Positions 9,871 through 24,892 of a DNA stretch of 27,616 nt are shown here, piece after piece. The notes below the pieces were generated by a model. It saw nothing but the letters and a program-made list of their open reading frames with translations. It was not told where the DNA came from and did not search any database. The DNA is from a virus. Position numbers and translations under genes: made by a program. The stretch lies in IMG/VR virus record IMGVR_UViG_3300025759_000543, positions 1 to 27,616 of that record. The stretch is one strand, 5' to 3'. Within the stretch, counting starts at the first letter, position 1; each line of letters starts with the position of its first letter.

Positions 9871-12258
9871 CTAAAACCGTATCCTAAAACCAGAATTCCA
9901 TGTTCCGGCTTTACCAGAGCCTTTTTGTCTCCATGGGCTTTCATCATAATGGATAAAGCTCTTATATCCCCCAATTCCTGGTCTTACTTTTCTTGCTCGA
10001 GCATTATCTACTAGAGCTTTAATTAAATTATCATATGTTTCTTTATTATTGTTTGGATACAGCCTCTTACCATTATATGAAAGGTAGAAATCCATTGCCC
10101 ATCCAAGTGGATGATTAATAGTGCCAGACCTATAAGCTCTACCACCATTATAGGTACAGGTGGCAGTGTATCCATCTCCAAGTGAGGAAACTGCTTTATC
10201 AATAGCATCTATAATAACTTGTCTGGGTCTAGAGCTTGGCTTTGGATTTAAGAATCTTACTCTACCACCTTCTTCCACTGAGGGAATTTCATAGTCAGCA
10301 TCACCTAAATCATCCTGTGGTTTTATTGCTAATATTTCAGTAAACTCATTCTTTGAGAACACCTTGTTATTAAAGTGCGTTTCAATATCTCTATTAAACT
10401 TCGCTTTGTATGATTGGTCAATTTCTGGCAATATTACAATTATTTTTCCAGACAAAGAACAATCAGGAGCTAATGTATCATATGACAATATCATTTTTTC
10501 GTAATAGATAATGTCTTTCCACCATACAGCCAAATCAAATAGTGATGTTAAATTACTTCTTCCAGAATTTCCAACTACATCAAAGACAACAGCACGACCT
10601 TTTAGTTTTAAATCGTTTAAGCTATTGGGAGTAATCTTCTCATCAGGGCCTGGACGATACACACTTTCAGAAATTTTTAAAGTGACATTTTTAAATTTCG
10701 TTTGATTTGAAAGAATATTCTTCATGTTTAAAGCATGAATGCCTAAATATTTCGCTAACTCTCGTTTTACACTAAGATCTCTTATAAAGTTTAAATTAGT
10801 AGGATCGTCAGATCCTAAGAACTTTGCCATTGAAATACCAGGAGCCAATAAAGTTTCTGAAGTAATACTGTTTTGTTTGTATGGATTATATTTTTCATCT
10901 GGATATATTTTTATTTCAGACTTGGATGGTATATAAGCCGATGAAGGATTTACTGGCAGACCAACTCCAACTGAAGTTTGTGGAGTTGGATCATCTTTTA
11001 TAATTCTTCCAATTCCCTCTGGTGTTGGATTATTATAGCATTCTCCAATTGTTCCTTCTTTCACCATAGAACTCACAAAGTCAGAATTGTTCAAATTACT
11101 TGGATCTCTTAATTTTGATCTAGCTTGACCAGTATTTAGTGGTGTTTCAGAAACTCCTCCATAATCTTTTGATTTATTAATAAAGTTTTTAATAAAATCA
11201 CCAACATCAATTCTAACTTTCTTAATAGCATTAGCTGTTAGTGTAAGATAATTACTAATATTTGTAGATGATACGCTAGCAATAGACGGAGTAGCAGTAT
11301 TTGTATTTGTCCAACCAGCAGCACTACCGGGTCCACCACCATACGATGCGTATATTGCAGTATCAGAAGCAATTGCTTCATCTGCTCTACCAGTCAAATC
11401 TCCATGAAACGTAGGAGCAGTTACACCTTCAACAAATTGAGCACCTTTACCGCTATAAACCATTTCAGTTCCACCGATAATGCCGCCACCACCCATTACA
11501 ACTAGCTGATTTGACCAAGCTCTTAATTCATCAGAAGACATATTCATTTCATATTCCGATGAAATATTCATATTACCACTCGCAAAATAATTTGCTGTGC
11601 CGTCAATATTCATTGAATGAATACCTTTTACATTATGAGAATGACCATTTAAAAATGTATCAGTTACTTGCTCTATTACAGTTGTTGACATTGACTTGGT
11701 AACAGTAGTGCCCTTTGATCCTCCTACAGTAGATCTATCAGAGCCTTTAACATTTTCTGTTTTATTTCCTTTGACATTAAGATTATAGTTTAAACAATCA
11801 ACATTAAAGTCTCCATTGACCTTTAAGTTTAAATTGCCTTTATAAACCATAGTTCCATCGCCTTCAACAACAATATGATGTTGAGCGCCTATTAATTCTA
11901 CTTTTTGTTCCATTGCTGAGACAAGAATAGAACCATCATCTCTTAATTCAATTCCACCACCATTATTATGTTTGATTAAGATTCTTTGCCCATCAGCAGT
12001 GTCATTTACTTCTATCACATGGCCAGAACCAGACACCGAAACTTGATTTAATGGATATTGTGATGGGTTTGGTTTATTTAAATCTATTGGTAAGTCTTCA
12101 GCGCTGGTTGCGCTATTTAACTTGTATTGCTGCCCACCACCTCTTGCTTGTAAGTTAACAGAATGGTTTGATCCATATAAAGGATAAACTCCACTTTTGT
12201 CTTCATGATCTCCAGTCTCGGAAGTTACACCTATTGTTTTTACATCTGGTTCTGGCAT
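9871..12258 (-). CDS. Spike protein: gp5 C-terminal beta-helix plus M15-type peptidase
   Basis: 795 aa. Residues ~95-260 form a repetitive beta-helix (VNGDFNVDC, NVKGNKTENV, SMNIDGTANY, NMNIS) like the C-terminal needle of T4 gp5 and VgrG. Residues ~490-650 form an unrecognised globular region. Residues ~678-795 look like a zinc M15 (D-Ala-D-Ala carboxypeptidase/endopeptidase) domain, with H716-P-L-G-W-A-M-D723 fitting HxxGxAxD and IH770YDES as a likely third ligand site. The family cleaves peptide bonds in peptidoglycan. The gene overlaps the preceding amidase-like gene by one base. T4 gp5 carries OB-fold, lysozyme and needle in one chain, then cuts itself between lysozyme and needle. Here the needle is a separate gene and carries its own wall-cleaving domain. 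Activity is inferred from motifs only. Confidence 0.75.
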   Translation of the reverse strand: MPEPDVKTIGVTSETGDHEDKSGVYPLYGSNHSVNLQARGGGQQYKLNSATSAEDLPIDLNKPNPSQYPLNQVSVSGSGHVIEVNDTADGQRILIKHNNGGGIELRDDGSILVSAMEQKVELIGAQHHIVVEGDGTMVYKGNLNLKVNGDFNVDCLNYNLNVKGNKTENVKGSDRSTVGGSKGTTVTKSMSTTVIEQVTDTFLNGHSHNVKGIHSMNIDGTANYFASGNMNISSEYEMNMSSDELRAWSNQLVVMGGGGIIGGTEMVYSGKGAQFVEGVTAPTFHGDLTGRADEAIASDTAIYASYGGGPGSAAGWTNTNTATPSIASVSSTNISNYLTLTANAIKKVRIDVGDFIKNFINKSKDYGGVSETPLNTGQARSKLRDPSNLNNSDFVSSMVKEGTIGECYNNPTPEGIGRIIKDDPTPQTSVGVGLPVNPSSAYIPSKSEIKIYPDEKYNPYKQNSITSETLLAPGISMAKFLGSDDPTNLNFIRDLSVKRELAKYLGIHALNMKNILSNQTKFKNVTLKISESVYRPGPDEKITPNSLNDLKLKGRAVVFDVVGNSGRSNLTSLFDLAVWWKDIIYYEKMILSYDTLAPDCSLSGKIIVILPEIDQSYKAKFNRDIETHFNNKVFSKNEFTEILAIKPQDDLGDADYEIPSVEEGGRVRFLNPKPSSRPRQVIIDAIDKAVSSLGDGYTATCTYNGGRAYRSGTINHPLGWAMDFYLSYNGKRLYPNNNKETYDNLIKALVDNARARKVRPGIGGYKSFIHYDESPWRQKGSGKAGTWNSGFRIRF

Positions 12259-13853
12259 TATGTAGTTCCTTCTAATCTTCTCGCAGCCAATTCTGTTTGA
12301 TCTAATGGTGGTTCTTTTTTAGGGTCATAATTTTCTATAGCTTGAGTAAATCCATATAATTTTAATCTATTTGAAACTGAAAAATATGGACTACCAAATT
12401 CTTTTGAAATATCATTAGCGCCAAAGACTTGAATGCCGGGTCTTACTCTAAATAAATTTCTAAGTAATCTTTTTAATCCATTTATTACAGGGCCATTATA
12501 AGTATTTGAACTATTATCTCCACCCTCTAGTAGAATTATAATTCCGCTGTCAATGTGTTGACTTGCAATAGAATTAGCATTTTTAGTTAATCCTCTAGAT
12601 CTAACATCCAAAGGTCTTCCCGTCCAAATGCGGCCATGAGCATCAATGAAGAAATGAAAAGGAGTACCGGTGCCTTCTGCCACATATGTTCTATGAACAT
12701 CATATGAAGTTATTTTTCCATTTGTAACACCAGTTGAGAAAATAATTGCTTCAGTAGATTCTCTTTTCATACTTGAAAATATAGCTATTTGTTCTTCATC
12801 ACTATTAGCTAACCCAAAGAAGTTAACTTTATCGTTTGTATTTTCCTTCCATCCACCGGCGTTTAATTGCCTTCCTTTGAGGGGAATGTCAACAATATTT
12901 TCTGTTATAATAGCAGATGCTCTATTATCTATTTTTCTTAATTCACTTTCAATTTCTGATAAAGATTTATCACTGTATCTTTTTAATATTTTTGCTGCTG
13001 CTCTGGGATTACCAGCAGTAGTTGAAGTTATAACTGCACGAAAATCTTCGGGTTTTATATCTACTTGAATATTGTTTATAAAAGCTATTTTATTAATAAT
13101 ATTTGTAGCTGGCTGCAAACTTGTTTCAATCACATTTTCTACTAGTGGATCAAATCCTTTATTTACAGTATTAACAATGTTATTGATAGCTATTGTATTT
13201 TGTACAATATTATTTTTTGATAAATTCTTTAAATTTTTTGATATACCAACTGCTGCTCCAACTACACTGCGCAAATCATCGATTGGTTTAAAGCTTAAAC
13301 CTTTCACAAAATCAACATCAAGAGCTTCATCAATTGATAATAAAGCAACTCCAGTTAATATCTCTTTACTATTTGGCAAATTAATATTTACGTTTTTTTC
13401 AACTGCATTAAGAACTTGGGATGTTGTAGCTAAAGGATCAGCTTGTTTTAATGCTGCTGCCATTGCTTCTGGAAATGGGGCTGAAATAACAACATCTCTA
13501 AATGCATTTCCAGTTGTCTTGGAATTTCCAAGAACTTGATCAATAATTGTTTTATCGCTGCTAGCTACTTTTTTTGTTAACCGATCTAAGTCTGATCCCG
13601 TTCTTTGTAGTTGTACAACAGACATTGCAGCTTTATGTTGCACCGGTGCTGATCCTTCTACACTGTCAATAATATCATCTACTGCAGAAGTCAAAGCTTT
13701 AAATCCAGCTAGAGTTTGTCCCACCTTCCCACCTAGTTTAGAAGTTATAGACATTTCATGTTGTCTCAATACAGGAGAGACATCACTAGTTGCATTATTA
13801 ACTTTATTAGAAATATTTGCTAGCTGTTGTTCAATTATAGTTTGTGTTGTCAT
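12258..13853 (-). CDS. Hub-associated protein with degenerate T7-lysozyme-like amidase domain
   Basis: 531 aa. Residues 1-340 are largely helical in appearance, Ala/Asn/Ile-rich and unrecognised. Residues ~357-495 align by eye with N-acetylmuramoyl-L-alanine amidases such as T7 lysozyme: MKRESTEAIIFSTG versus KQRESTDAIFVHCS, TPFHFFIDAHGRIWTGR versus VGYHFIIKRDGTVEAGR, and VFGANDISKEFGSPY versus LRAHHEVAPKACPSF. The zinc ligands of T7 lysozyme (H17, H122, C130) fall on residues that are not His or Cys, so catalysis is unlikely. It sits between the lysozyme and spike genes, with a 1-base overlap downstream and a 1-base gap upstream. A structural or peptidoglycan-binding role in the hub is inferred. 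Confidence 0.65.
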   Translation of the reverse strand: MTTQTIIEQQLANISNKVNNATSDVSPVLRQHEMSITSKLGGKVGQTLAGFKALTSAVDDIIDSVEGSAPVQHKAAMSVVQLQRTGSDLDRLTKKVASSDKTIIDQVLGNSKTTGNAFRDVVISAPFPEAMAAALKQADPLATTSQVLNAVEKNVNINLPNSKEILTGVALLSIDEALDVDFVKGLSFKPIDDLRSVVGAAVGISKNLKNLSKNNIVQNTIAINNIVNTVNKGFDPLVENVIETSLQPATNIINKIAFINNIQVDIKPEDFRAVITSTTAGNPRAAAKILKRYSDKSLSEIESELRKIDNRASAIITENIVDIPLKGRQLNAGGWKENTNDKVNFFGLANSDEEQIAIFSSMKRESTEAIIFSTGVTNGKITSYDVHRTYVAEGTGTPFHFFIDAHGRIWTGRPLDVRSRGLTKNANSIASQHIDSGIIILLEGGDNSSNTYNGPVINGLKRLLRNLFRVRPGIQVFGANDISKEFGSPYFSVSNRLKLYGFTQAIENYDPKKEPPLDQTELAARRLEGTT

Positions 13854-13854
13854 G

Positions 13855-14793
13855 TTATCCTGCCGAAGATGAAATATAATTTTCTATTGAACGCTTATAT
13901 TGTGTATAAGCTTTTCTTGCATATTTTTCTCTTTCAATTATTTCATTTGATTTATTTGCTGGATTTTCATATTCATCTAAGAATACCCAAGTAGAATTAA
14001 ATTCAGATTTTCCACCTTCAAAAGTATCACAATTTAAGAGAGTATTATATGTATTATTATAAGCTCCACCATTTGTTTCTGAATTTTTTTCACCACGCAA
14101 CTCATGAATTATGAAGTCCAGTTGAATAAAGAAATCATCCCATGGCTTATTATTCATTGATGCATATTTTTTTAGTTTCTGAAGTCGATATCCAGCATTC
14201 TTAGATGGATTCCATTGTGCTAGTCCAGCCGAGTTTTCTCCTTCAAAGCTAGAAGGTAATGAAGGCGCAAATGCAGAATTTTCTCTTTCTAGGTTACCTA
14301 GAATGCCAGCAGCCATAATTTCTGTGAAGTCATTAGATCTTAAATATTGAAAGATAATTAATCTTTTTTGATCAAGGGTTGGGTTTCCTTCATAGTAAGC
14401 TTTAGCTAAATCTTTTGGAATAAATGTATTATCTGTCGTTAAATTGTCTGGATCATACCAATCTTTAATATCATTTGGCGCTTTTTCATATTGAGTTACT
14501 GAAGGTATTTCTTTTTTTGGAATGCTACCTAAAATTAATGGATGTTGCGATTTTTGTGCATCTAGAAAAATTCCAAACACTAATGCTGTATTTTGTATTT
14601 GAGCTATTTTACCAATCCCAGATACGCCTCCCTCAGTAGATGGAAGCATAACTTCTGCATATGGCAAATCATCATCACTTATGTCTGGACCATGAATGCC
14701 ATGAATTCTTACTTGAAGTCGGCCTTTAGCAGTTGGATCATAGTTCTTAACTGTACCAATAAACCATCGATTATCATCACCATAAAACTTCAT
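13855..14793 (-). CDS. 5: gp5-like hub protein: OB-fold plus tail lysozyme
   Basis: 312 aa. Residues ~8-92 resemble the gp5/VgrG OB-fold (WFIGTVKNYDPTAKGRLQVR, then LPYAEVMLPSTEGG and HPLILGSIP). Residues ~140-300 resemble the phage tail-lysozyme family: GILGNLERENSAFAP near 163, with E171 the likely catalytic acid by analogy to ES-F motifs, then SAGLAQWNPSKNAGYRLQKL and the FFIQLDFIIHEL helix. T4 gp5 trimers cap gp27 and locally digest peptidoglycan during penetration. The needle part is missing here and is encoded two genes downstream. The ATG overlaps the gp27-like stop by 4 bases. Lysozyme subtype is uncertain. Confidence 0.8.
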   Translation of the reverse strand: MKFYGDDNRWFIGTVKNYDPTAKGRLQVRIHGIHGPDISDDDLPYAEVMLPSTEGGVSGIGKIAQIQNTALVFGIFLDAQKSQHPLILGSIPKKEIPSVTQYEKAPNDIKDWYDPDNLTTDNTFIPKDLAKAYYEGNPTLDQKRLIIFQYLRSNDFTEIMAAGILGNLERENSAFAPSLPSSFEGENSAGLAQWNPSKNAGYRLQKLKKYASMNNKPWDDFFIQLDFIIHELRGEKNSETNGGAYNNTYNTLLNCDTFEGGKSEFNSTWVFLDEYENPANKSNEIIEREKYARKAYTQYKRSIENYISSSAG

Positions 14794-18881: not shown

Positions 18882-19466
18882 ATGTCAAATTTATTTCAAA
18901 AACTAGAATTAGAAGCATTTAGAAAAGGAATCACTCCCAGAACACAAGAGTCTCGGGATTGGTTTCGACGTAAAGCCAGCACTCTTGGCAATATCAATAG
19001 AAATGCGCTGATGAAAGAAGAGCCTATTCAATTAAAGAATAGGCAAGTAATTGGATCAATGTATATGTTCTTCTATGACCCAAAGCATAAAGAAACATTA
19101 TCTTATTATGATAGCTTTCCATTAGTGATTGTATTAGATAAAGCTGAAGGTGGATTTTTGGGAATGAATTTACATTATCTGCCACCAATCTTAAGAGCAA
19201 AATTTTTGGATGCTCTTATTGATACAGCTAATAATAAATTATACACTGATGATACTAGATTTATGGTAAGTTACAGAATGATGAAAGCGGCGGCAAAATT
19301 TAAATATTATAAACCGTGTGTTAAACATTATTTGACTTCTCATATTAGAAGTCGCCTTGCACTTGTTCCAGCACCTGAATGGGAAATTGCTACGTTCTTA
19401 CCAACAGCAGATTTCCAAAAAGGGTCTAGGAGTGAAGTGTATAGAGATTCCAGAAAGGCAATTTAA
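18882..19466 (+). CDS. Conserved T4-like phage protein, possibly DNA end protector gp2
   Basis: 194 aa. Basic N-terminus (AFRKGITPRTQESRDWFRRK), then a central segment GSMYMFFYDPKHKETLSYYD followed by FPLVIVLDKAEGGFLGMNLH and YLPP, which looks like a small beta-barrel. The C-terminal half (PCVKHYLTSHIRSRL, EWEIATFLPT) is basic and aromatic. I believe this motif set is common in T4-like phages but cannot assign it securely. In T4, gene 2 (DNA end protector) sits next to gene 4, so gp2 is a positional guess; T4 gp2 is longer (274 aa). Its stop overlaps the next start. Confidence 0.5.
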   Translation: MSNLFQKLELEAFRKGITPRTQESRDWFRRKASTLGNINRNALMKEEPIQLKNRQVIGSMYMFFYDPKHKETLSYYDSFPLVIVLDKAEGGFLGMNLHYLPPILRAKFLDALIDTANNKLYTDDTRFMVSYRMMKAAAKFKYYKPCVKHYLTSHIRSRLALVPAPEWEIATFLPTADFQKGSRSEVYRDSRKAI

Positions 19467-20044
19467 TGGCTTTTTCTATCGATCAGCTTAAGTCTAAAAT
19501 ATCGCAAAAAGGTGGCATAGCTTTAGCTGACCTTTTCGAAGTTAAGCTTCCCGCAATTCCAGGGTTTGATGGAATTGACGAATTAAATGTATTATGTAAA
19601 GACGTCAACATTCCTGGAAGACAAATCACATCAAATGATAGATTAATTGGAATGCACTTAGAAAAAGTGGCATATGGATATGCTGTGGCCGATGTTTCTG
19701 CTACCTTCTTATGTTTGAATGACTTTTATGTTAGAAAATATTTCGAAGCATGGCAGGCTTTAGCAGTAAATCCAGAAACTTTTGAACTAGGATATTCTCA
19801 TGGACCAAATGGATATGCAAAAGATGTATCCATTTATCAATTATCGAAAAATAGCGAAATGACTGAAGAAAACAACATGGGGTTTTTACAACCTGATGCG
19901 GATTCTAAAAAAGTCTATGGAGTTAAATTAGAATATGCTTATCCAACAACTTTAAACGGGATTGGGTACGCTAATGAAAACCAAAATATTGTTGAAATAA
20001 ATGTACAGTTATCTTATAGAAACTGGAAACCCATTGAATTATAA
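19466..20044 (+). CDS. gp19-fold tail tube-like protein
   Basis: 192 aa. LADLFEVKLPAIPGFDGIDE, VLCKDVNIPGRQI, FYVRKYFEAWQ and YGVKLEYAYPTTLNGIGY are hallmarks of the T4 gp19 tail-tube family (T4 gp19: 163 aa). Tube subunits stack as hexameric rings inside the sheath. The main gp19 gene of T4-like phages usually lies beside gp18 with the head genes, so a copy beside the chaperone and tape measure could instead be the tube initiator (the gp54 role) or a specialised ring. No separate gp54 is seen in the window. Overlaps the upstream gene by one base. Confidence 0.7.
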   Translation: MAFSIDQLKSKISQKGGIALADLFEVKLPAIPGFDGIDELNVLCKDVNIPGRQITSNDRLIGMHLEKVAYGYAVADVSATFLCLNDFYVRKYFEAWQALAVNPETFELGYSHGPNGYAKDVSIYQLSKNSEMTEENNMGFLQPDADSKKVYGVKLEYAYPTTLNGIGYANENQNIVEINVQLSYRNWKPIEL

Positions 20045-20057
20045 AGGATGAATTGAA

Positions 20058-20768
20058 ATGGCATTACCTAAATTAAATGCATTACCAAAGTATACTGTAA
20101 ATCTACCATCGAGAAATATGCCGGTAAGATACCGGCCATTTTTAGTCAAAGAACAAAAACTACTTTTAATGGCAATGGAAAGTCAAGATTCCCGGCAGGT
20201 AGTAGAAGCAGTTAGTGATATTATTACAGCATGTGTTGATAGTGAAGTAAAAACACATCACATGACAATGTATGATATTGAATTTTTATTTGCAAAGATT
20301 AGATCTAAATCTGTTGGAGAAAATATTCAATTAAAAGCAGCATGTTTAGACGAAAATTGCAACCACCAATCAGACGTTGAAGTAAACATTGATGAAGCAA
20401 AAGTAAGTGAAGTGGAAGAAACTTATTCTATTATTCAATTGACAGAAGAAATAAGTTTGAAAGTTAGCCATCCATCATATGAAAGAATTTTACAAGTACA
20501 GAATTCTGGATCTCAAACTGAAACTATTATGGAATTAATTATGGCATCAATTGACACTGTTCTTACAGCTGAAGAGCAGATCACATTTAAAGACCACACA
20601 CACGAAGAAAAAATTGAATTTGTTGATAGTCTTACTACAGATCAACTTGGATCAATTATTTCTTTCCTTGAAACCATGCCAGCTCTTACAACTGATATTC
20701 ATTGGAATTGTGAAGCATGCGGTAAAGAAAATACACGAACACTAAGAGGACTGAATGATTTTTTTTAA
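20058..20768 (+). CDS. 26: gp26-type baseplate hub / tail assembly chaperone
   Basis: 236 aa, 0-frame product. PSRNMPVRYRPFLVKEQKLL near residues 17-36, then ITACVDS and YDIEFLFAKIRSKSVGE, match the T4 baseplate protein family (gp26; T4 208 aa). Two Cys pairs, C96-x4-C101 and C218-x2-C221 (NCEACGKEN), could bind one zinc. It sits between a tube-fold gene and the tape measure, where lambda-type phages encode the tail assembly chaperone gpG. It ends in Asn-Asp-Phe-Phe-stop on a run of eight T. Ribosome site AAAGGATG. Confidence 0.82.
   Translation: MALPKLNALPKYTVNLPSRNMPVRYRPFLVKEQKLLLMAMESQDSRQVVEAVSDIITACVDSEVKTHHMTMYDIEFLFAKIRSKSVGENIQLKAACLDENCNHQSDVEVNIDEAKVSEVEETYSIIQLTEEISLKVSHPSYERILQVQNSGSQTETIMELIMASIDTVLTAEEQITFKDHTHEEKIEFVDSLTTDQLGSIISFLETMPALTTDIHWNCEACGKENTRTLRGLNDFF
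20744..20750 (+). promoter_or_regulatory. Internal SD-like element before slippery site
   Basis: AAGAGGA within the gp26 coding region ends 8 bases before the slippery run. Internal Shine-Dalgarno-like sequences about 10 bases upstream stimulate -1 shifting in bacterial dnaX. There is no suitable start codon in the -1 frame for it to serve. Confidence 0.5.
20759..20765 (+). promoter_or_regulatory. Slippery heptamer T_TTT_TTT for -1 frameshift
   Basis: In the gp26 frame the sequence reads GAT TTT TTT TAA, so the heptamer fits X_XXY_YYZ exactly and the next codon is the stop. Slipping back one base continues TTA ATA AGC through an open frame of 65 codons. A 4-bp CCTT/AAGG pairing downstream is too weak to count as a stimulatory hairpin. 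Confidence 0.75.
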
Positions 20769-20962
20769 TAAGCCTTTCTCATGATACACTTGAAAATTAT
20801 TATAAGGTAAATTATCAACTAATTCAAAACCACCACTATTCGTTAAAAGAAGTAGAAGATATGATGCCATGGGAGAGGGAAATTTATTTGATTATGTTAA
20901 CTGAAGACCTAAAAGGGCAGAGAGACGAAATGGATCGTCAAAAATTAATGTCAGGAAGATAA
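20765..20962 (+). CDS. -1 frame extension of gp26 (GT-like frameshift product)
   Basis: 65 codons open in the -1 frame from the slippery site to TAA at 20960. The frame has no ATG, GTG or TTG until 20861, while the protein-like sequence begins at once: SHDTLENYYKVNYQLIQNHH, then YSLKEVEDMMPWEREIY, LIMLTEDLKGQRDE. Such HHYSLxE...MPWEREIY tails resemble the C-terminal part of tail assembly chaperone frameshift products. Expected fusion is join(20058..20765,20765..20962), 301 aa. It ends one base before the tape measure start, which it must engage if it acts like lambda gpGT. In T4 the equivalent may be gp51, but I cannot show that. Initiation at ATG 20861 would give only 33 aa. Confidence 0.72.
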   Translation, partial: LISLSHDTLENYYKVNYQLIQNHHYSLKEVEDMMPWEREIYLIMLTEDLKGQRDEMDRQKLMSGR

Positions 20963-20963
20963 T

Positions 20964-23153
20964 ATGTCAAGTTTACAAGAGATAAGCCAAAAACTGGGTC
21001 CAACTAGTGATTCGCTTTATTCTTCAACAACAAGAATTGAAGCAAAAATATCGGCGTACTTTGACTATGTCAAAGATAAAGATGATCGAGCTTTATCTCA
21101 ATTAGAAGCACAAAGAGAATCATCTCGTGGAACTCGTGGAATTGCTGGAAGAGGCACAACTGCTCCAGCTCCTGGTGGTATTGGTGCTGGTGGTATCTTA
21201 GGCGGACTTGGCGGGGGATTTGCAGCTCTAGGAGCTGGAATGATGAACTCTGCTAAAGGTATAGTAGCAATGGGACTTGCAATCCCTGCTTTCTTTGGTG
21301 GGCTACTCGCCGGTAGTGCCGGACTTGATTGGTTGCAACAAACAAAGGGAATGGATTATGAAGGTCTGAAAAAAGCAGCTATGGGCTTTTCAGACATTAT
21401 TACAAGCATGGATCCAGAATCATTTGTTGTTCTTGGTGGAATTATGGCAGTCAGCGCTGTTGGTGGTACAAGAGCCGCTAAAGGGTTAGGCTCTATGGGC
21501 TTTGGTATTAGCGCATTCTTTGCTGGACTATTAGCCGGTGACGCTCTATTCAAAGGAGTCACTGCTCTTGCAGGTGAGAATGCAGTTAATTTTGCTGGAC
21601 TAAAAGCAGTAGCTGTTGGTTTCTCGGATATGATCTTATCAATTGATGAGAAATCGCTCACGGTTCTAGCTGGACTTTTAGGTGCTGCAGCTATTGTTGG
21701 GCTTGCTGGTGGAAGTACTGAAGTTCCAAAAGCGATGGGGTTGATGGGTATTGGTATCACAGCGTTTTTAGCTGGTCTATTACTTGGCGATACATTTTTA
21801 GCTGGAGCTTCAGCTCTAGGAGCTGACTTAAACTTTGCGCATTTAAAGACAGCCTTAGTAGGATTTTCGGATTCTATTACTGGATTGACTGAAGATGGAG
21901 TTATCGCTTTAGGCGCAATCATGGGAATAAGTGGTCTAGCTGCAAAATTCAATCTTTCTGGGGCGAAGACTGCCGCATTCATGACTTCACTTGGCGCAGG
22001 TATCTCTGGATTTTTGGGTGGCCTCATATTAGGTGATGTTGCGATAAGTTGGTTGAATAAATTAAAAGCTTCAGATAGTCCAGGTATTGTTTCAGCATTT
22101 GGAATATTTAATAATTCAGTTGAAACATTAAATGAAAAATCGCTAAAAGCCTTTGGCTTAATACTTGCCACGGCAACTGGGCTTGGAGTTTTAAGTACTG
22201 CAGTTCCAGGTTCTGCACTAGTGGCAGCTGGTGGAATTGGTGCAATTATGACAGCACTTGGTGTTGGCATCTCTGGATTTTTAGCCGGTATCGTATTAGG
22301 AGATGCTGCACTGAGTTGGTTGGGTAAATTGAAAGCTTCAGATAGTCAAGGTATGTCTGGAGCATTTAAAGTATTCAATGATTCAATTAATGCTATTGAT
22401 GAATCAGCTATGTCAAAAATGGAAAAAATCAGTAATTTGAAAATTGGAGGCGAACTTAAAAACTTATCTTTAGCAATGATTGGCTTCTTTACAGCTGAAG
22501 GTATGAACGAAGCTGCATCACTCTATAGTAAAGTAAAAGATTTTATTACAAATGGAATTAATTTTATTTTTGGTACGAATCTTGGTGAAGGTAAAAAGAG
22601 TGCAATAGAGACAATGTTAGATGGATTGGCTCCTTTGATGACTATAGATCAAAAGATCTTTGAAAAAATAAACATGTTTAGTGCTGCTTTAGATAGTTTT
22701 TATAAATCATTTAATAAAATAGCGAGTGCAAATATTGGAGAAGGTCTAAGTAAAAACATATCAAAAATAATGCAAGACCTTTCAACAGTATTAGACTTTA
22801 TGCCAGATCCTTCAGATCCAAAAAAAGGAAATATATTAACAGGTGGAACTTTGAGCCACAAATGGCTAGGCAAAAAGTATTATTTTGGTGGGGGTTTAAA
22901 TAATCTTACTGATGAGAACCTAGAACAATTAGAAACTGGTGTTGGGAAAATGTATAAGGCCCTAGGAATTGATCTACAAAACCCAGGGCCTAGAACTACT
23001 TCAGAAGCATTACAACCACTTAATACTAATATGCAAGAACTAACTAGAAGTATTAATAATTTAGTTAACCAAAATACCGTAACTACTGTTAATCAACAAT
23101 TGAAATATACTCCAACTCCTGCACCTTTTGATATTAATGCTACTGTTCAGTAG
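20964..23153 (+). CDS. 29: Tail tape measure protein (gp29-like)
   Basis: 729 aa (T4 gp29: 590). N-terminal ~60 residues are polar and helical, then a Gly/Ala-rich hydrophobic region with five degenerate ~75-88-residue repeats (residues ~104-510), followed by an amphipathic helical part and a C-terminus rich in Asn, Thr and Pro. Length, hydrophobic repeats and position directly after the frameshifting chaperone mark it as the tape measure, which fills the tail tube lumen and sets tail length. I see no peptidase or lysozyme motif. AGGAAGAT precedes the ATG. By-eye similarity to T4 gp29 itself is not visible. Confidence 0.78.
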   Translation: MSSLQEISQKLGPTSDSLYSSTTRIEAKISAYFDYVKDKDDRALSQLEAQRESSRGTRGIAGRGTTAPAPGGIGAGGILGGLGGGFAALGAGMMNSAKGIVAMGLAIPAFFGGLLAGSAGLDWLQQTKGMDYEGLKKAAMGFSDIITSMDPESFVVLGGIMAVSAVGGTRAAKGLGSMGFGISAFFAGLLAGDALFKGVTALAGENAVNFAGLKAVAVGFSDMILSIDEKSLTVLAGLLGAAAIVGLAGGSTEVPKAMGLMGIGITAFLAGLLLGDTFLAGASALGADLNFAHLKTALVGFSDSITGLTEDGVIALGAIMGISGLAAKFNLSGAKTAAFMTSLGAGISGFLGGLILGDVAISWLNKLKASDSPGIVSAFGIFNNSVETLNEKSLKAFGLILATATGLGVLSTAVPGSALVAAGGIGAIMTALGVGISGFLAGIVLGDAALSWLGKLKASDSQGMSGAFKVFNDSINAIDESAMSKMEKISNLKIGGELKNLSLAMIGFFTAEGMNEAASLYSKVKDFITNGINFIFGTNLGEGKKSAIETMLDGLAPLMTIDQKIFEKINMFSAALDSFYKSFNKIASANIGEGLSKNISKIMQDLSTVLDFMPDPSDPKKGNILTGGTLSHKWLGKKYYFGGGLNNLTDENLEQLETGVGKMYKALGIDLQNPGPRTTSEALQPLNTNMQELTRSINNLVNQNTVTTVNQQLKYTPTPAPFDINATVQ
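21273..22493 (+). repeat. Five internal repeats of the tape measure protein
   Basis: Units begin near residues 104, 179, 262, 344 and 432 with G(I/F)xISAFFAGLLxGDA-like hydrophobic segments, then a loop with (N)FxxLKxxxxGFSDxI and DExSLxxLxGI. The last two units share the loop KLKASDSxG and are closest to each other. The pattern suggests growth by duplication. Confidence 0.8.
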
Positions 23154-23156
23154 TAA

Positions 23157-24080
23157 TCAATCTTCCGCTGCCAGTTTAGCGAAATAGCTCATTGTATCAT
23201 CCTCATCATCCATTGAGGATTCAGCCGTTTTTATAGTAGGTTCAGGAGCTGCAGTCTGAGTTGGCGAGGGAGCTGATTGAAAGTCAGGAATCTCATCATC
23301 GAGATCCATTGACACTTCCTGCTTTACAGTACGTGGAGCTTGTTCACCTAATACTTGATACATCTTCGCTTTTAGCTCATCATAAGTTTTATAGTTCTTA
23401 GGATCAGTAAACTCTGAAATATCATATAGACTATCATAAATTGCTTCTAGACGAGATTCGTCACCATCGTAGAGAGGCTCTGGTGAACGGAACTCTGATT
23501 TGTCATAGTTACGGTAACCCTCAACGTTACGAATTTTTAGTACAAAATCCGCACCATCCCAAAAGTCAAATGGATTTACTGGCTTTTCATCTGGGAATTG
23601 AGGCTGCATTAGATCCATAATCTTATCAAAGATTTTCTTACCAAACTGGTACATAAAGACTTTACCTTCATTGGCAGGATTACCTGGATCTGAGACTACC
23701 AACGCATTAACAACATAATGTAGTCGACGCTTTTGCTTGCGTACAGTATCCTTATCATCTTCAATACCTGAATTCCATAGACGAGTATTCAATTCAGATA
23801 CAGGATCTTGTTGACCAATGGATGTTAGAGATTTTTCAATGTACCATTGACCTGTTGGCCCTTTAAATCCGTGGTCCCAATAGCGAACCCAAGGAATATC
23901 CTGGCCTTCTTTAGCGGGGAGGAATCGTAGGATAGCATAGCCATTGCCTGCTTTATCTACTGTAGGTTTCCACATACGGTCATCACCATATGATTTTTGT
24001 TCTCCACCACCAACAGACTGAGCTGCATTGATAAGTTTAGAAAAGTCTGTACGGTTACGTTTTAGATTTGCAAAAGACAT
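23157..24080 (-). CDS. 32: Single-stranded DNA-binding protein gp32
   Basis: 307 aa (T4 gp32: 301). N-terminal basic LKRNRTDFSKL resembles the LAST motif used for cooperative binding. The core has GYAILRFLPAKEGQ, WVRYWDHGFKGPTGQWYIEK, LVVSDPGNPANEGKVFMYQF and GADFVLKIRNVEGYRNYDKS, all matching the T4 OB-fold core. The tail is acidic (SSMDDEDDTMSYFAKLAAED) for partner binding. The zinc ligands of T4 gp32 (H64, C77, C87, C90) are not all present: the region aligned to the three Cys (KSLTSIGQQDPVSE) has none. Acts in replication, recombination and repair. Ends 3 bases from the convergent tape measure gene. Own promoter at 24117-24145. Confidence 0.95.
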   Translation of the reverse strand: MSFANLKRNRTDFSKLINAAQSVGGGEQKSYGDDRMWKPTVDKAGNGYAILRFLPAKEGQDIPWVRYWDHGFKGPTGQWYIEKSLTSIGQQDPVSELNTRLWNSGIEDDKDTVRKQKRRLHYVVNALVVSDPGNPANEGKVFMYQFGKKIFDKIMDLMQPQFPDEKPVNPFDFWDGADFVLKIRNVEGYRNYDKSEFRSPEPLYDGDESRLEAIYDSLYDISEFTDPKNYKTYDELKAKMYQVLGEQAPRTVKQEVSMDLDDEIPDFQSAPSPTQTAAPEPTIKTAESSMDDEDDTMSYFAKLAAED

Positions 24081-24116
24081 ATTTGTTTTCCTTATTTGCT
24101 GAAATATTACTGAAGT

Positions 24117-24145
24117 ATTCTACCATATTTTTTTAGATTGGTAAA
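24117..24145 (-). promoter_or_regulatory. gp32 promoter TTTACC-17-TAGAAT
   Basis: -35 TTTACC at 24140-24145, 17-base spacer, -10 TAGAAT at 24117-24122 preceded by TATGG. The -35 lies in the last codons of gp33. It is the same form as three other promoters on this strand, and would let gp32 be expressed apart from gp33. Confidence 0.65.
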
Positions 24146-24366
24146 CTGTTTTCTTGAGGCAAAAAATTTAATTTCATTGCTTCTGCCTCAAGTTTGTTTT
24201 TAATGACTGGAGAAATATATTTTTTTATATCCTCCATTTCAATATTGTGTTGATCGCACAAGTGTATAATAGCATCCATATACGAGGACTTGTGCGATTT
24301 TACGGTATCCACTACTAACTTAGTGAACTCACTTTTTGTTAGAAACTTTTTTTCTGCTGTTGACAT
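24133..24366 (-). CDS. 33: Late-transcription co-activator gp33
   Basis: 77 aa from the ATG at 24366, chosen because GAGGATC lies just before it and the family similarity begins after it; a longer frame to 24447 lies inside the upstream gene. SSYMDAIIHLCDQHNIEMED and LEAEAMKLNFLPQENSLPI match the short gp33 proteins of marine T4-like phages (T4 gp33: 112 aa). gp33 binds RNA polymerase and links it to the sliding clamp and gp55 at late promoters. It lies directly upstream of gp32 as in the T4 33-59-32 order, but without gene 59. Overlaps the upstream gene by 38 bases. Confidence 0.8.
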   Translation of the reverse strand: MSTAEKKFLTKSEFTKLVVDTVKSHKSSYMDAIIHLCDQHNIEMEDIKKYISPVIKNKLEAEAMKLNFLPQENSLPI

Positions 24367-24892
24367 GATCCTCAATGGCCATTTCATTAGTATATACATC
24401 TCCAATATCTGGATAATATACACCAGGTGTTCGTTTTGGCGTACCATCAGGATAGTATGCCATCGCTACTGATCTGTGTTGTATAGTATTTTGTTTTTGA
24501 GCGCCATATCGGTTATCACGATAGATGCCATCACCAAGGTAACGTTGCAAATTAAAGATGTAAGTTTCAGTTTCCCAATATAATTGACGGAGATTTTTAT
24601 CCTTACTTTCTTTTGCTTCTTTACCTAATCCTTTAATTAAATCTTTTTGCTCCTTAATCCATTCTTTCACTTTAGCTGGAGACAGCGAATGCTCAGCAGG
24701 AAGATCCCGAATAGACTCGTCAATAGAAAGATTTTTAGCTGGACCCCGAGCAGCACGAGCTTTCGCCAAGCGATCTACTATTGCTGCTTTTTGTTCTTCT
24801 GTCATTTGACGTTTCTTACGGGTCTTTTTAATTGGCTTTAGTTTTGAGTCTGCAGCCAATTGTTCTCTAATTTTTTGACGTTTTGTAGCCAT
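24329..24892 (-). CDS. Basic protein of unknown function upstream of gp33
   Basis: 187 aa. The first ~60 residues are highly basic (KLKPIKKTRKKRQM, VDRLAKARAARGPAK) and suggest nucleic-acid or polymerase contact. The middle (SPAKVKEWIKEQKDLIKGLG, then LRQLYWETETYIFNLQRYLG) is predicted helical. The end has a DGTPKRTPGVYYPDIGDVYT segment. T4 has dsbA, a small dsDNA-binding protein acting with late transcription, at this place, but DsbA is 89 aa and I see no similarity. Strong GGAGG site before the ATG and its own promoter at 24920-24948. Confidence 0.7.
   Translation of the reverse strand: MATKRQKIREQLAADSKLKPIKKTRKKRQMTEEQKAAIVDRLAKARAARGPAKNLSIDESIRDLPAEHSLSPAKVKEWIKEQKDLIKGLGKEAKESKDKNLRQLYWETETYIFNLQRYLGDGIYRDNRYGAQKQNTIQHRSVAMAYYPDGTPKRTPGVYYPDIGDVYTNEMAIEDHVNSRKKVSNKK

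Follow-up and report, generated by a model that had tools for sequence, protein, structure and literature searches.

A candidate programmed -1 frameshift in the gp26-like gene of a T4-like phage and its conservation among relatives

The DNA analyzed here (the window) is a stretch of 27,616 nucleotides from a marine T4-like phage, and it contains a gp26-like gene that is followed by a second reading frame in the -1 phase. Our analyses make it very probable that the products of this locus are a pair of tail assembly chaperones of the lambda G/GT type, made via -1 frameshifting, and we assign this reading a probability of about 93%. A programmed frameshift in the gp26 gene had been put forward from the letters of the DNA and its open reading frames (the sequence-only reading), and this proposal is supported both by the conservation of the site and its phase in relatives and by the window's tail frame lacking a start codon of its own throughout its first half.

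We infer the ribosomal slippage at the heptamer, its efficiency and the binding partners of the products, and the proposed sequence of events is as follows. Most ribosomes would stop at the TAA after gp26 and release a short form of 236 aa, and a minority would slip by -1 on T_TTT_TTT (P-site TTT to TTT, A-site TTT to TTT), probably aided by pairing of an upstream AAGAGGA with the 16S rRNA. The slipped ribosomes would then read 65 further codons, giving a long form of 301 aa. By analogy with lambda, the gp26 part may coat the tape measure protein, the rarer tail domain may recruit tail tube subunits, and both chaperone forms would leave before the tail is completed.

The gp26-tail junction in the window

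The features of the locus, in order along the window, are:

19466-20044, + strand: tail tube family gene (phrog_45), just 5' of gp26
20058-20768, + strand: gp26-like gene, putative short chaperone form (G-like), 236 aa (PF12322, phrog_150, AlphaFold model)
20744-20750, + strand: Shine-Dalgarno-like (SD-like) AAGAGGA, likely frameshift stimulator, 8 nt 5' of the heptamer (position kept in 191 relatives; anti-SD pairing stronger than in synonymous controls)
20759-20765, + strand: slippery heptamer T_TTT_TTT (T_TTT_TTN in phase in 331 of 331 related loci)
20765-20962, + strand: -1 frame tail (putative T-like domain), 65 aa (phrog_634, the C-terminal end of phrog_150 and the C-terminus of T4 gp51)
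20766-20768, + strand: zero-frame stop TAA, directly 3' of the heptamer (sequence)
20964-23153, + strand: 729-aa gene, probable tape measure (position, length and composition)

Each of the details that the sequence-only reading gave for this junction was confirmed. The gp26 frame ends GAT TTT TTT TAA, with the heptamer touching the stop, and the T run at the slip site is eight long when the T of GAT and the T of TAA are included. AAGAGGA lies eight bases 5' of the heptamer, the -1 frame is open for 65 codons from 20765, and the first 32 of these codons include no usual start, the first ATG, GTG or TTG being the 33rd. A stop at 20756-20758 makes the heptamer (20759) the exact point at which the -1 frame opens, and the frame's other bound is the stop at 20960-20962. 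The overlap that permits -1 joining thus amounts to the heptamer and essentially nothing more. Joining gp26 to the -1 tail gives the predicted long form of 301 aa.

Protein families and neighbouring genes

In profile searches, the short form matched PF12322 "T4_baseplate" (E=4e-57) and phrog_150 "baseplate hub" (E=2e-61). For the 65-aa tail, the matches were to phrog_634 "baseplate hub assembly catalyst" (E=3e-22), which is the gp51 family, and to phrog_150 at its C-terminal end (E=2e-8). The tail could also be aligned with the C-terminus of T4 gp51, and a relationship between the two, which had been suggested as a check by profile search, is thus borne out. Searches of Rfam gave no match and those of NCBIfam no useful match.

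The gene order in the window is tube family, chaperone and probable tape measure, the last being named by its position, length and composition. It had been claimed that the tail ends one base before the tape measure start. The position is correct, with the 729-aa ORF starting at 20964, but the tape measure identity did not gain the support of a profile, as this ORF had no Pfam or PHROG match. The similarity search gave one weak match, the equivalently placed ORF of a single relative.

Several other features of the window were noted. On the minus strand, between 9871 and 14793, the gp5-like hub/lysozyme family phrog_430 matched two separate ORFs, its N-terminal part corresponding to ORF 13855-14793 and its middle to ORF 9871-12258, and an amidase-like ORF (12258-13853, minus strand) lies between them. 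The spike seems to be split over several genes in the window. A single-strand DNA binding protein (phrog_224) and a late promoter transcriptional regulator (phrog_254) are encoded at 23157-24447 on the minus strand, which fits a T4-like phage. A pattern scan also found a 7-bp GC-rich hairpin at 20120-20136, in the 5' part of the gp26 gene, that is terminator-like on both strands.

Conservation of the slippery site

Relatives of the locus were collected from IMG/VR scans and annotated phage records, which together with the window stretch gave 347 sequences (346 loci plus the window). The patterns used to search IMG/VR were gp26 or tail peptides that do not cover the slip site. Three of the sequences had no detectable tail, 13 had gp26 and the tail fused in one frame, and 331 had them in different frames. 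In all 331 of the latter the tail was in the -1 phase, and in none was it in the +1 phase. Dereplication reduced the different-frame loci from 331 to 191.

A T_TTT_TTN heptamer was present in frame inside the overlap in 331 of 331 loci and in 191 of 191 non-redundant ones, where it took the form TTTTTTT in 111, TTTTTTC in 64, TTTTTTA in 12 and TTTTTTG in four. The background rate in the gene bodies was 0.0052 per codon position for X_XXY_YYZ and 0.00076 for T_TTT_TTN. Chance can be excluded as the source of the site, because the heptamer is in phase in 191/191 loci and the background rate leads us to expect 8.7/191. The relatives are treated as independent in these counts, which they are not fully, and we therefore do not read the counts as probabilities. 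Each of the six Ts is invariant (2.00 bits), and together they form the sole fully invariant run within the surrounding 115 positions. All 191 encode the P-site Phe by TTT, although 25% of the Phe codons in the rest of the gene are TTC. The comparison of the junctions, which had been proposed as a check, shows the slippery run and the -1 ORF to be conserved (331/331), both across marine T4-like phages and beyond that group.

Distribution of the arrangement and start codons in the tail frame

Such a site, together with a -1 tail, was found in Kyanoviridae, in Pelagibacter and Methylophilales phages, in Rhizobium and Sinorhizobium phages, in KVP40-type Vibrio phages, in Aeromonas phages 65 and phiAS5, and in phages of Stenotrophomonas, Xanthomonas, Pseudomonas and Nitratidesulfovibrio. 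In Erwinia phage phiEa2809 (Ackermannviridae; L347:2200-2430) a -1 tail ORF was observed after gp26 but no X_XXY_YYZ heptamer.

The most serious alternative, although we consider it highly improbable, is that the tail is a separate small gene, a free gp51 with its own start codon, expressed perhaps by termination-reinitiation. In public records the tail does stand as a protein of its own, labelled "baseplate hub assembly catalyst" and frequently begun at an internal ATG, and an ATG is present within six codons in 26 of the 191 relatives. In some phages an ATG is at or near the gp26 stop, as TGATG in Rhizobium and Sinorhizobium phages and as TAATG in Vibrio phage phi-pp2, and such an overlap with the stop occurs in Rhizobium/Sinorhizobium and KVP40-type phages (L087:1495-1510, L088:1501-1515, L089:1501-1510). 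However, the slippery site is retained in those loci, as it is in all 191 relatives, including the ones with an ATG. In the window, a protein made from the first usual start, at codon 33 of 65, would omit the conserved LSHD..L.NYY..N part, a motif that begins directly 3' of the slip site and 5' of any ATG in most relatives. The tail is also fused in T4 gp51, which is a further point against an independent gene. A free tail protein might additionally be made in the Rhizobium/Sinorhizobium and KVP40-type phages, since the ATG overlaps the gp26 stop there.

Stimulatory elements and the length of the T run

Among the relatives, pairing with the anti-SD of the 16S rRNA was strongest in 9-nt windows whose first base lies 14 to 18 nt 5' of the heptamer. 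Its means there were -4.9 to -6.2 kcal/mol, as against roughly -0.5 to 0.2 just upstream. A Gly codon is conserved at the SD-like site, and part of the pairing signal is therefore protein sequence. When the same residues were recoded synonymously, mean pairing was -5.04 (standard deviation of the control means 0.07), compared to the observed mean of -6.38, which shows selection on the SD-like element at the synonymous level too.

Downstream of the heptamer, folding was in excess on average among the relatives (mean z -1.5), and no such excess was seen in the window (z 0.06). A common downstream RNA structure was considered and rejected, as RNAalifold gave no consensus on 191 ungapped rows and none was found in the window.

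A long form could also arise if the RNA polymerase, rather than the ribosome, slipped on the T run. We regard this as less probable still than a separate tail gene. The run of eight Ts in the window, and of eight or nine in 87 of the 191 relatives, would suit such a process, but 77 of the 191 have only six Ts, and a run of six is short for polymerase slippage. The TTTTTTC, TTTTTTA and TTTTTTG heptamers are common and suit ribosomal slippage of the X_XXY_YYZ kind, and the SD-like element, with its selection at the synonymous level, acts on ribosomes. An error of sequencing or assembly that split one fused gene has almost nothing left to recommend it: homopolymer runs are error-prone and the T4 gene is fused, but the same phase and site occur in 331 loci that include many independently sequenced isolate genomes, which refute such an error, and the heptamer is the consensus across families.

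Predicted fold of the short form

The 236-aa short form was modelled with AlphaFold, and the pLDDT was 92. Foldseek returned no significant match for this model (E 0.75), and among the matches listed the highest probability (0.69) was that of the HK97 tail assembly chaperone, 2ob9. The top four structures in VIA-align, which aligned over residues 1-96, were 3fgx (Z 7.7), 2ob9 (7.3), 3klu (YqbN, 7.2) and 5ir0 (5.1), followed by a match at Z 3.0, with the reservation that a Z below 8 can reflect a common arrangement. We take 3fgx, YqbN and 5ir0 to be chaperones of the same kind as that of HK97. As modelled, the short form matches the tail assembly chaperone fold (HK97, YqbN).

Copy number and evolution of gp26 and gp51

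Both T4 proteins contain the PF12322 domain, with E=9e-64 for gp26 and E=4e-52 for gp51 (residues 1-201), and in gp51 the domain is followed in frame by the same tail. By sequence comparison, T4 gp26 and gp51 are paralogues, with gp51 as the fused long form. Searches of the whole records of 22 phages found one PF12322 copy in each of the 18 that lack a fused copy (18/18), and two copies in the other four, namely the three T4-type phages T4, Aeromonas AS-gz and Klebsiella pKp20, and Vibrio phage Va1, the second copy bearing the fused tail. A sequence search of the window, a 27.6-kb contig that is itself a fragment, gave only one match, and the two-gene arrangement of T4 was not encountered in it, as gp26 and the tail are in different frames. 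In Va1 (L355:833-2175), a short gp26-like gene and a fused gp26-tail gene are in tandem on the same strand, and this tandem is a second arrangement of the duplicate-and-fuse solution.

In a tree of the gp26 domain, the T4-type gp26 and gp51 were placed together (95/92), apart from KVP40 and Aeromonas 65. The two Va1 copies also grouped with each other, although on long branches, which may attract. Duplication and fusion has replaced frameshifting once, and possibly twice, based on the exchange of copy number and these groupings. A wider scenario, to which we give somewhat less than even odds, is that frameshifting is the ancestral means of setting the short:long ratio in T4-like phages and that duplicate-and-fuse took its place on two or more independent occasions, once in the T4 lineage of the Straboviridae and once in Va1. 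The KVP40-type and Aeromonas 65-type phages would, in this scenario, have retained the frameshift. The suggestion that gp26 and gp51 correspond to a G/GT-like system, which in the window phage is still joined by frameshifting, draws support from their paralogy, the homology of the tails, the HK97-like fold and the conserved site.

Comparison with known systems

In 2010, gp51 was reviewed as essential and of unknown function (PMC3004832), and a 2016 review described G-T frameshifting as widely conserved except in T4 (PMC5009743). According to passages in two later papers (PMC10885494, PMC12846349), Vladimirov, Gautam and Davidson (Virology 2022) identified the tail assembly chaperone genes of T4-like phages. 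The first of these passages attributes to that work the finding that some T4-like phages have a short gene plus a fused long gene, and the second refers to it for the presence of poly-T slippery sequences in the TAC-N genes of T4-like phages. On the account given in those passages, both the assignment of T4 gp26/gp51 as chaperones and the frameshift signals of T4-like phages are already published, and the idea is not new. As the principle had been published, what our study adds is breadth, statistics and annotation, not a new mechanism.

What emerges is a single two-part chaperone that would be made by frameshifting in most of the T4-like relatives examined and by duplication and fusion in T4. 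The routine annotation of public marine phage genomes, in which gp26 appears beside a truncated gp51 as a second protein or the tail is absent altogether, can be corrected on this basis.

The locus resembles lambda gpG/gpGT, and the chaperone frameshift of long-tailed phages in general, in having a short form and a form predicted to be extended by a -1 frameshift, a slippery site near the stop of the short form and a chaperone-type N-terminal fold, and probably also in its place between a tube-type gene and a tape measure gene. It differs in its T_TTT_TTN site, with lambda reportedly using another, and in its gp26, which is longer and has a second, Cys-containing part. A 2004 study by Xu, Hendrix and Duda is said to have described the frameshift that long-tailed phages conserve in their tail assembly chaperone genes. 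In T4, too, the short form is a PF12322 protein and the long form is PF12322 plus the same C-terminal tail, but in T4 these come from two paralogous genes, of which one is the fusion, whereas the window phage has one gene and a candidate frameshift. The chaperone locus of Pseudomonas phage Adele and the Vandenendeviridae (PMC12846349) likewise has a poly-T slippery motif ending TAC-N, and its -1 frame is uninterrupted and lies upstream of the tape measure. Its motif is GTTTTT and it belongs to another phage family, and the two loci are likened by motif and arrangement.
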